A stretch of DNA of 64,000 nt from Paenibacillus andongensis (GTDB lineage: Bacteria > Bacillota > Bacilli > Paenibacillales > NBRC-103111). The stretch is taken from positions 6,207,001-6,271,000 of the forward strand of contig NZ_CP104467.1 of assembly GCF_025369935.1 (NCBI RefSeq), read 5' to 3'. Each line of letters opens with the position of its first letter. Within the stretch, counting starts at the first letter, position 1. Under the pieces are notes generated by a model, which saw nothing but the letters and a program-made list of their open reading frames with translations, made no database searches and was not told the DNA's origin. Of the stretch, positions 27,092-29,521 are shown in pieces. Both the position numbers and the translations under genes were made by a program.

Positions 27092-28276
27092 TTATGAAGC
27101 AGACGAAGCTACATCATCCTCATCCGCACTTCCGCTATCCGTGCCTTCAAGGAAGAATTGAACAAGCTTCATATGCTTTTTCAGCGATTTCTCGTGGATA
27201 AGATTGATCTTACCGTTATCCAACGCGCCAAATACGTAGATTAATTCCTCATTGTCGTGCGACCAATCGAAGCCTTCCAGAAGCTGTAAAGAATTCGTCC
27301 ATTCTTCGTTGTATTCTCCGTTCGGGAATAAGAAGCGATTGGCATACAGCGCAATACTTTCTTGAATCACACGATTGGCCGATGTATACTGCGCCAAGCC
27401 TGGTTGCTCTGGCATCATCGGCAGGATCGTATTAAAAAATTGGTGCAATATTTCTACATACGTCGATGGATCGTGGCGAATTTTGCGCTGAAGCTCATAG
27501 GATGGCTGCATTCTGCCAGAAAAAAGCATCGTCGCCGTCGCATATAACCAGCTGAAACACGTAAAGTTACGATTGAACGAAGTCAAGTTGTTGCGACGCT
27601 CAACACCGGCTGCTTTGAGATACACATTATGATCGACAACCTGTTGAATAACCAGATTTAACGGATCGATGGAATCGAAGGAATGACCAAGTTCTTTGCT
27701 CACCAGCTGGACTTTAGAGTTAATATCGCCGAACAACTGCTGCTCTTCTTCCTCTGTTAAGCCAATATAAATTTGCACAGCAAGCTGTGTTTCCATCAAA
27801 TCCAGTCGTCTTCCCTCAAGCTGATTAATCGTACCTTCAGTCTCCTCAACCTCTTGCCTAATTTCAGCATCTTCTGGAAACTTCCGTTGCTTGATCTTTA
27901 ACACCACTAATTTCTTCTCGTAACGTCTAACTTCTTTTTGCATTTGATCATTCACATAGCCTAGCGCTAGAATACGATGCTGACCGTCCAAAATAGACAG
28001 CTTGGAACCATGCTTGAGAAGGAATTCCTTCTCGCCTTTGGACAGTTGATTCACTTCACGCAAGGACAGCGTAACAGGTCCGAAGAACACATGATCGAGC
28101 TCACGCTCCTGCAAATAGGTGGAGATTTTACGTCTTTGCATGTTGCTCAGCTTACGCTGCACCATAGGGTCAATCATCGTATAATTCAGCAAATCCTGAA
28201 CGCGTAAAGCTACAGTTGAAAGTCCGAACTTATCGCAAAAAGGATGAATGGTCATCTTAAGGCGTAATCCTTCCAT
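27092..28276 (-). CDS. DGQHR-domain protein (DndB-like), second of a pair
   Basis: 394 residues from the ATG at 28276; AAGGAGGACG lies before it and the start overlaps the previous stop by one base (TAATG). The motif LDGQHRILAL (DGQHR at 97-101) defines the DGQHR/DndB family, known from DNA phosphorothioation control and 7-deazaguanine DNA modification loci. A long charged helix follows (KKLVVLKIKQRKFPEDAEI), then FGDINSK, a second conserved family patch. The acidic, serine-rich tail is probably disordered. No dnd or dpd genes are seen nearby. The function here is unknown. Confidence 0.8.
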   Translation of the reverse strand: MEGLRLKMTIHPFCDKFGLSTVALRVQDLLNYTMIDPMVQRKLSNMQRRKISTYLQERELDHVFFGPVTLSLREVNQLSKGEKEFLLKHGSKLSILDGQHRILALGYVNDQMQKEVRRYEKKLVVLKIKQRKFPEDAEIRQEVEETEGTINQLEGRRLDLMETQLAVQIYIGLTEEEEQQLFGDINSKVQLVSKELGHSFDSIDPLNLVIQQVVDHNVYLKAAGVERRNNLTSFNRNFTCFSWLYATATMLFSGRMQPSYELQRKIRHDPSTYVEILHQFFNTILPMMPEQPGLAQYTSANRVIQESIALYANRFLFPNGEYNEEWTNSLQLLEGFDWSHDNEELIYVFGALDNGKINLIHEKSLKKHMKLVQFFLEGTDSGSADEDDVASSAS

Positions 28277-29430
28277 TAGCTCACGTCCTCCTTGGAATTG
28301 TAAGAATCGGCATCGCTGATAAGAAATGCATTCTGATCTTGATAAAAGTTTTTGATATAGTTGTAGGCTTTCATAATGCGAGTCCGTCTCGGCAACCGAT
28401 CCTTCTCTTCTCCCGCATAAATGTTGTTCCAATTCACATGAGGAAGTATTTTCAATACGTGCTCAAGTGCATAGCGATTAAATTTACCTGGTTTCGTAGC
28501 TTCTTCATGCATAAACATGGCTAATGCAATTTGGATGTTCTCAGACCATACGATTTCACCCTTAGCTGGTTCTGGCAAGTAATTCAGCAAGCCATTGAAA
28601 TAGGTACCCGCCAAGGAAACAAGATCTTGCAGTTCTTTATCCTCATATTGATAACCATTATTACGCGCTGCTGATTTCATTCTGCCTTCGAACAAAGCAA
28701 TCAATATTTCGATTAGCAAGTGATAGGAGAACAAATACTCAGGTGACTTCCCGCGTTCAGAGAACATATCTACAGTCAGCTTCTGCATGGCTGGTGCTTT
28801 GGCTGCAAGCTCCGATGCAGCAACGTGATAGAATCTGCGCTGATCGCGAAGTACCGCCAGGTTGCCGCCAAGCTTGCGCGGAAGCTTGTTAATGTCGGAG
28901 AATAACTGACGCTCTTGACGAGCATTAATGTCCAAATAGGTCATCGTTGAGATAGGGAACGCGTACAAACGGCGCAGCTTCTCCGTGATCTCTTCCATCT
29001 TGTCGTACTCACGACGATCCTTGGCACGTGCCATTTGACTTTGCAACGTCTCCATAATGCGTTGGAAAGCGGCCAAACGATGCTGACCATCCACGACATA
29101 CAATTTCTCAATCGGCTGCAAGCGAAGTGCTTGCCCCTCTTCGTCATAATGACCTGCACCTCTTGCCGAGAAAATGATTCCCGGGAAATAAATAGGCTGG
29201 CGATCTTCTAAATACAAATTAACGTAATCAATGAGCTTAGAAAGATTACGCGGAATAATCGCACGTTGAACTTCTAAATCAACTTCATAGATTGAAAATA
29301 GTTTGCTCATGGGCAGTGTAGCAGCAATTGTTGCTTGCCCAAAAGTTTGCCCCAAAATTCCGGGAATTTCTACGAACGATGAAGGCTTCTGCTCAGCTAA
29401 AAGCTCAGATAATGAGGAAATGGCATCCAT
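28276..29430 (-). CDS. DGQHR-domain protein (DndB-like), first of a pair
   Basis: 384 residues. The motif VVDGQHRLAAFQRI (DGQHR at 114-118) and FSDINKLPRKLG mirror the corresponding patches of the downstream gene, so the two are distant paralogues. AAAGGGG precedes the ATG. The C-terminal half is helical and basic. Known relatives (DndB, DpdB) bind DNA or regulate modification. Translational coupling of two divergent copies suggests that they form a heteromer, which is inference. Confidence 0.8.
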   Translation of the reverse strand: MDAISSLSELLAEQKPSSFVEIPGILGQTFGQATIAATLPMSKLFSIYEVDLEVQRAIIPRNLSKLIDYVNLYLEDRQPIYFPGIIFSARGAGHYDEEGQALRLQPIEKLYVVDGQHRLAAFQRIMETLQSQMARAKDRREYDKMEEITEKLRRLYAFPISTMTYLDINARQERQLFSDINKLPRKLGGNLAVLRDQRRFYHVAASELAAKAPAMQKLTVDMFSERGKSPEYLFSYHLLIEILIALFEGRMKSAARNNGYQYEDKELQDLVSLAGTYFNGLLNYLPEPAKGEIVWSENIQIALAMFMHEEATKPGKFNRYALEHVLKILPHVNWNNIYAGEEKDRLPRRTRIMKAYNYIKNFYQDQNAFLISDADSYNSKEDVS

Positions 29431-29521
29431 ATGCTTACCCCTTTCAACTAATAAGTTTTATTTCAATACTTAAACATCTATATGTCTCTCATTCTCCTAT
29501 TTTTACCAAAATCTCTAATTT

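Follow-up and report, generated by a model that had tools for sequence, protein, structure and literature searches.

The window, a stretch of 64,000 nucleotides from Paenibacillus andongensis, covers bases 6207001-6271000 of a genome that consists of one 7.64 Mb contig. An earlier note on this DNA had described two overlapping DGQHR genes, and both ORFs (named A and B) are indeed present on the minus strand, where the stop codon of A and the start codon of B overlap by 1 nt. The features of the locus are as follows, with positions counted in the window.

28276-29430, minus strand: gene A, the upstream member of the pair, encoding a DGQHR/DndB-family protein of 384 aa
27092-28276, minus strand: gene B, the downstream member, encoding a DGQHR/DndB-family protein of 394 aa from the ATG at 28276 (probable start)
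28274-28278, minus strand: the sequence TAATG, in which the A stop and the B start have one base in common
29077-29091, minus strand: DGQHR codons of A (residues 114-118), a GxxR-type nucleotide-binding motif, invariant in the A alignment
27974-27988, minus strand: DGQHR codons of B (residues 97-101), invariant in the B alignment
29486-29509, minus strand: TTGGTAAAAATAGGAGAATGAGAG, the core of a non-coding block conserved upstream of A, a candidate promoter or operator

In the ORF list, B is a 446-aa frame that opens at an upstream TTG and reaches 28432. The true start is probably the ATG at 28276, because 75 related pairs have B proteins of 382-398 aa and mostly a 1-nt overlap; a Shine-Dalgarno-like AAGGAGG lies just upstream of this ATG. 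The neighbors of the pair in the window include genes for an aminotransferase, an M50 peptidase, and a glycosyl hydrolase according to the family scan.

Both proteins belong to the family PF14072, with scores of 61.4 bits (A) and 74.8 bits (B) against a gathering cut-off of 29.1. With TIGR03233, the equivalog model of DndB proper, they reach 22.6 and 27.7 bits, far under the cut-off of 328, which leaves both outside DndB in the strict sense. The scores with the DGQHR-domain model TIGR03187 (56.8 and 53.4 bits) fall slightly below its cut-off of 58.85, with the motif itself present, and those with PF03235 (27.3 and 18.3 bits against 33.2) place neither protein among the SspE/GmrSD effectors. 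In neither protein did the family scan detect a nuclease or any other effector domain, and the idea of a nuclease effector was rejected for want of any match to a nuclease family. The two proteins are 18% identical over aligned positions and clearly homologous by profile-profile comparison (hhalign probability 99.8%), which bears out their earlier description as diverged paralogues. DGQHR domains are described as having three motifs, a QR pair, DGQHR, and FxxxN (PMC4619093), and all three are found in both proteins: the A alignment shows no variation in QR, DGQHR, and FSDIN, nor does the B alignment in QR, DGQHR, and FGDIN, and each protein carries DGQHR together with F-x-D-I-N. A search with PADLOC returned weak DndB-type matches and one match to Orf5, and no DpdB match at E values up to 1. 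Among phage records, A had no match and B had 14 weak matches to Pseudomonas phages.

The DndB of dnd operons resembles A and B in family (PF14072), in its DGQHR and FxDxN motifs, and in length. It differs from them in being a single protein encoded within a dnd operon and in having an invariant cysteine, whereas A and B are two paralogues without dnd genes. In the column that we took as Cys29 of Salmonella enterica DndB, on the assumption that the columns are equivalent, a cysteine stands in 10/10 dnd-type rows, in 4/23 A rows, and in 0/23 B rows; the A and B of the window have none there. Since they are without this cysteine, the two proteins are probably controlled in a different way from DndB. 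DpdB of the Dpd deazaguanine system is likewise a DGQHR-type protein, found in a defense and modification setting; unlike it, A and B have no DpdB match in PADLOC and no dpdA in their genome.

The AlphaFold model of A is of fair quality (pLDDT 80.1, pTM 0.72), and that of B is poor (pLDDT 64.3). Foldseek gave no significant PDB match to the A model, the best being BrxU with an E value of 0.012. Alignment of A residues 29-184 by VIA-align placed SspE first (Z 8.6, rmsd 3.8, 144 residues), followed by PadC, ParB (about 7), Noc, DndI (6.9), sulfiredoxin (Srx, 5.2-6.6), and KorB; the free serine kinase SerK is also among the structural relatives of this fold. The matched chains are 8-15% identical to A. 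The N-terminal domain of A is thus predicted to adopt a ParB/sulfiredoxin-type nucleotide-binding fold, which is followed by a helical domain at the C-terminus for which no PDB match stood out on the predicted model. By its homology to A, B is likely to have the ParB/Srx fold too; its own model reached Z 6.4 with SspE, behind unrelated helical matches. Sequence profiles of the PDB gave nothing for A, and for B they gave SspE with an E value of only 0.049, behind ten C/EBP leucine-zipper matches that resemble coiled-coil noise. A and B share the N-terminal ParB-like fold with DGQQR or DGQHR with SspE, DndI, and GmrSD/BrxU (DUF262/PF03235), from which they are set apart by having no detectable nuclease domain and by PF03235 scores under the cut-off. 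The ParB-CTPases (ParB, Noc, and KorB) resemble A in their nucleotide-binding fold, their GxxR motif, and a proposed NTP switch on DNA; unlike them, A has no identifiable ParB helix-turn-helix domain. Neither A nor B was found to contain any DNA-binding domain.

The earlier note had described the pair as having no DNA-modification partners and as perhaps standing alone, and a search for such genes agrees with this: the genome has no match to dndC (TIGR03183), dndD (TIGR03185), or DpdA (PDLC02807). Across 103 genomes of the family, dndC lies above its cut-off in nine and gives a match of any strength in 19, and DpdA gives a match in two. The accompanying premise, that DndB-type proteins usually sit with modification genes, holds only in part, as several related plasmid-borne single DGQHR genes have no such gene in their stretch; a DNA methyltransferase gene lies near some of these singles.

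The pair is no local oddity. We found A in 89 of the 104 genomes of its own family and in 14 of its 22 genera, with 15 genomes in which it was not found and one of the 89 in which it is split into three pieces. At the level of the order, A has matches in 91/296 genomes, the two outside the family being weak (8.5e-6 and 5.2e-5). Among named records, the one nearest by protein A is Paenibacillus sp. Soil787 (100%), and P. alginolyticus, P. phytorum, and P. chondroitinus are among the close relatives. An adjacent, intact pair was recovered at 75 of 79 loci in named genomes; the remaining loci are in our reading a long B frame that had been filtered out (L077), two cut or partial loci (L120 and L134), and a broken A (L131). 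The genes overlap by 1 nt in 71 of the 75 pairs, by 4 nt in three, and by 0 in one, and DGQHR is present in every A and every B protein (75/75 each). A recent mobile insertion was ruled out because A is near-universal in the family and the overlap is conserved. The broken A belongs to Paenibacillus sp. CC-CFT747 (L055/L131) and lies in three frames, through sequencing error or decay.

The surroundings of these pairs, which we call type I, vary by lineage, and no neighbor is kept in all the type I loci compared. One set of loci has the aminotransferase, the M50 peptidase, and further metabolic genes, which we take to be of cobalamin type; another set has different neighbors. A and B evolve about as slowly as their neighbors, or more slowly: of 11 relatives compared by simple Nei-Gojobori estimates, three (L057, L058, and L060) keep dS under 1 throughout the genes compared, and against these three A has a dN/dS of 0.008-0.031 and B one of 0.021-0.035, compared with 0.067-0.092 for the aminotransferase, 0.062-0.117 for the M50 peptidase, and 0.019-0.049 and 0.047-0.090 for two further neighbors, presumably RluD-like and CobQ. 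In the other relatives, dS is partly or wholly saturated. One genome (G017; loci L041 and L042, with L123 being Paenibacillus eucommiae) carries type I pairs at two places some 70 kb from each other, and their A proteins are 78% and 65% identical to that of the window.

Upstream of A, a block around TTGGTAAAAATAGGAGAATGAGAGA is nearly invariant in 25 of the 75 upstream sequences, that of the window included, and the bases between the block and the gene vary. A different block around GGTGTATAATGGAAnTATATGAACCTATTATAGT occurs in 34 of the 75 and is incomplete in some of them; 16 sequences fall in neither set. These blocks may be promoters or operators. Assigning them to individual sigma factors was considered and dropped, since only general consensus sequences stood behind it. 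The genome holds no second copy of the window's block at up to 3 mismatches, and so no regulon was found. The 34-locus block, present at loci between L086 and L135 and unrelated to that of the window, contains an imperfect inverted repeat around TATAATGG...CCTATTATA.

Tandem DGQHR pairs also occur in other Bacilli, where we sorted them into types II and III. A class-wide search with the A protein of a Priestia pair matched 25 of 398 genomes at E values up to 0.001, and besides the window's own, tandem pairs were present in seven of the 25 (type II in G524, G572, G501, G404, and G425; type III in G624 and G399). The corresponding search of the phylum with the Priestia B protein matched 7/398 genomes, our own included, the other six weakly; viral contigs gave three short matches to the Priestia A protein. 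Two further families, searched at E values up to 1e-10, had matches in 2/39 and 24/261 genomes. By our own sorting, the 24 genomes comprise 20 with type III pairs, two with type II pairs, and two with singles only. The seven genomes from the class-wide search have no dndC over the cut-off, the match in G404 falling below it (238.6 against 290.4 bits).

The seven type II loci (L140, L175, L176, L177, L178, L179, and L233, with L175 and L176 at nearly the same place) are sporadic, as the two matching genomes among 39 in one family illustrate. A family scan of their neighbors covered L140, L177, and L179, together with one or two genes each at L175 and L178. Gabija genes lie beside two of the seven loci. 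On plasmid p6 of Priestia megaterium (L140, 7971-15883), an overlapping DGQHR pair, both genes of which are annotated as DndB in the public record, is followed by a DUF4365 gene and then by a Gabija pair. In G425 (L179, 1286-5658), GajA, a truncated GajB, and then a transposase gene are located upstream of the type II pair. Genes for a large serine recombinase and a SPOUT methyltransferase lie near a third type II pair (L177). These neighborhoods hint at a link to defense for the distant type II pairs.

The 22 type III loci, 21 in the 261-genome family and one in G624, were picked by their match to the DGQHR proteins and not by ComK. In their B proteins, DGSKR, DGTQR, and similar sequences replace DGQHR, and the GxxR core is kept. 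In 20 of the 22 (L234, L235, L237-L239, L242-L253, L255, L180, and L181), the pair is followed directly by comK on the same strand, in varied genomic surroundings. The gap between B and comK is 75-158 bp in 18 loci, 467 bp in L180, and about 150 bp by coordinates in L255. Ten of the ComK genes were checked against Pfam, all scoring over the PF06338 cut-off, and the others were recognized with a profile built from these ten. The exceptions, L254 and L256, have no adjoining comK, and the genes of L256 are broken. Outside type III, no ComK was found among the 147 loci searched (the window, type I, type II, and others).

Two trees, of 86 and 75 rows, were built by a quick search with SH-aLRT as the only support and with a long-branch warning for both; in them the A rows lie on one side of a branch with SH-aLRT 50 (86-row) and 88 (75-row), and the B rows with 95 and 97, respectively. 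Each of the six type-by-position groups also lies on one side of a branch in the 75-row tree, and the DndBs of dnd operons lie apart from the pair proteins. These trees favor a single duplication before the three types parted. It is not proven, because a separate duplication for type I, which lowers the log-likelihood by 12.8, is not rejected by the AU test (p 0.27).

The papers on DndB, SspE, and DndI, taken with the anatomy of the pair, lead to the reading that we prefer, at a confidence that is about even: A and B would form a heteromer that acts as a DNA-binding switch under NTP control and that now serves this Paenibacillus clade as a housekeeping regulator. Salmonella DndB is reported to repress its own operon through palindromes (PMC4507180). 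One paper calls DndB an ATP-dependent repressor and reports the binding of ATP and GTP by a DndB-like protein (PMC12704722); an NTPase or a nuclease has been proposed as another role (PMC10853773). In SspE and DndI, the same fold is reported to serve for nucleotide-dependent switching (PMC13251355, PMC11662687), and the R of DGQQR to be essential for the GTPase activity of SspE (PMC13251355). Following this model, A and B would be made in step from the overlapping operon and would probably join in a heteromer, which is plausible because the pair stands alone, is translationally coupled, and is kept together. The DGQHR (GxxR) motif of each protein would bind an NTP, and its binding or hydrolysis may switch the complex between DNA-binding states. 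The complex could then work as a regulator that recognizes specific sequences, probably its own promoter and further sites, and in this clade it would be a chromosomal housekeeping regulator that evolves slowly and does not depend on phosphorothioate or deazaguanine modification. The kept pairing and overlap, the wide presence of A in a family where dndC and DpdA are rare, the low dN/dS, the fold of A, the invariant motifs, and the presence of a transcription factor, ComK, beside type III pairs speak for such a switch; the missing DNA-binding domain, the lack of a convincing structural match to the helical domain of A, the weak model of B, the restriction of the upstream block to 25 of 75 loci, and its single copy in the genome speak against it. 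No experimental work on a protein of this pair family was found in the literature. The housekeeping function that the earlier note had set against its own proposal is half borne out: the pair behaves like a housekeeping pair, and no function has been established.

That proposal, a DNA-binding or defense-related heteromer, survives in its first part, as the heteromer is plausible and the fold of A favors nucleotide-dependent DNA binding. Defense at this locus is not supported, because the pair is near-universal in the family, evolves slowly, and has metabolic genes on both sides in many loci. In its broader form, this explanation takes the pair as a stand-alone module against phages or other invaders, either a two-subunit NTPase that senses foreign or altered DNA or a depleter of nucleotides. 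The Gabija genes, the recombinase and methyltransferase genes, and the sporadic distribution of type II are consistent with it, as is the description of the relatives SspE and DndI as restriction effectors; the lack of an effector domain in A and B, the PADLOC result, and the spread and slow evolution of type I argue against it, and we consider it unlikely.

The comK linkage, with its short gaps in most loci and its varied surroundings, suggests another role, in which the pair would control DNA uptake or competence in all branches and type III would retain the ancestral job. Such a role is quite unlikely, as no ComK match was obtained in the searched stretches of types I and II and P. polymyxa is reported to be without comK (PMC9195935). 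The available parts of two competence papers (PMC8370563 and PMC7317962) hold nothing bearing on the pair. Very improbable is a metabolic NTP-using enzyme that does not act on DNA, in the manner of sulfiredoxin and SerK: these enzymes have the same fold and many type I loci adjoin biosynthetic genes, but SspE and ParB-type proteins are structurally the closest, and the pair stays when its surroundings change between lineages. That the pair, as a member of PF14072, serves a phosphorothioate or deazaguanine modification system coded elsewhere in the genome is hardly credible and largely refuted already, given a genome without dndC, dndD, or DpdA matches, by which a hidden dnd or dpd locus was rejected, and the rarity of dndC in the family.

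Returning to the NTP-controlled switch, we raise a wider idea that we hold to be doubtful, namely that the tandem DGQHR pairs constitute an unrecognized two-protein NTP switch across Bacilli that governs the handling of incoming DNA. If this were true, one branch would be tied to ComK, another would be carried with defense genes on mobile DNA, and the Paenibacillus branch would be a core chromosomal regulator. Genes of the DndB family are taken to indicate DNA-sulfur modification, a label that public records also give to such pairs, as in Priestia. The pair of the window shows a branch of the DndB family with a life of its own, a gene pair nearly universal in a group of soil bacteria most of which are without the DNA-sulfur tagging system (dndC over the cut-off in 9/103 genomes). 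The repeated position of type III pairs directly before comK links this protein fold to the control of DNA uptake in a concrete way that can be tested. No paper in the open-licence literature searched contains ComK and DndB together, and none has a stand-alone DGQHR pair as its subject, judged by titles and the opening of abstracts. PF14072 itself is a known family; neither the pair as a conserved unit nor the comK link seems to have been described in that literature, as far as its available text goes.

Two more PF14072 genes are present in the genome, both single, at C1:341377-342435 (L005, 9378-10436) and C1:3476745-3477797 (L006, 9246-10298). Each adjoins a small helix-turn-helix gene, and both lie far from the pair on the trees; the regulator at L005 has a nearly full-length match to the PADLOC model PDC-M69A (E 3.5e-10). 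In a dnd locus of another genome (G143; L185, 8135-9442 and 15834-16934), a normal DndB is accompanied by a second, very diverged DGQHR protein of 435 aa.
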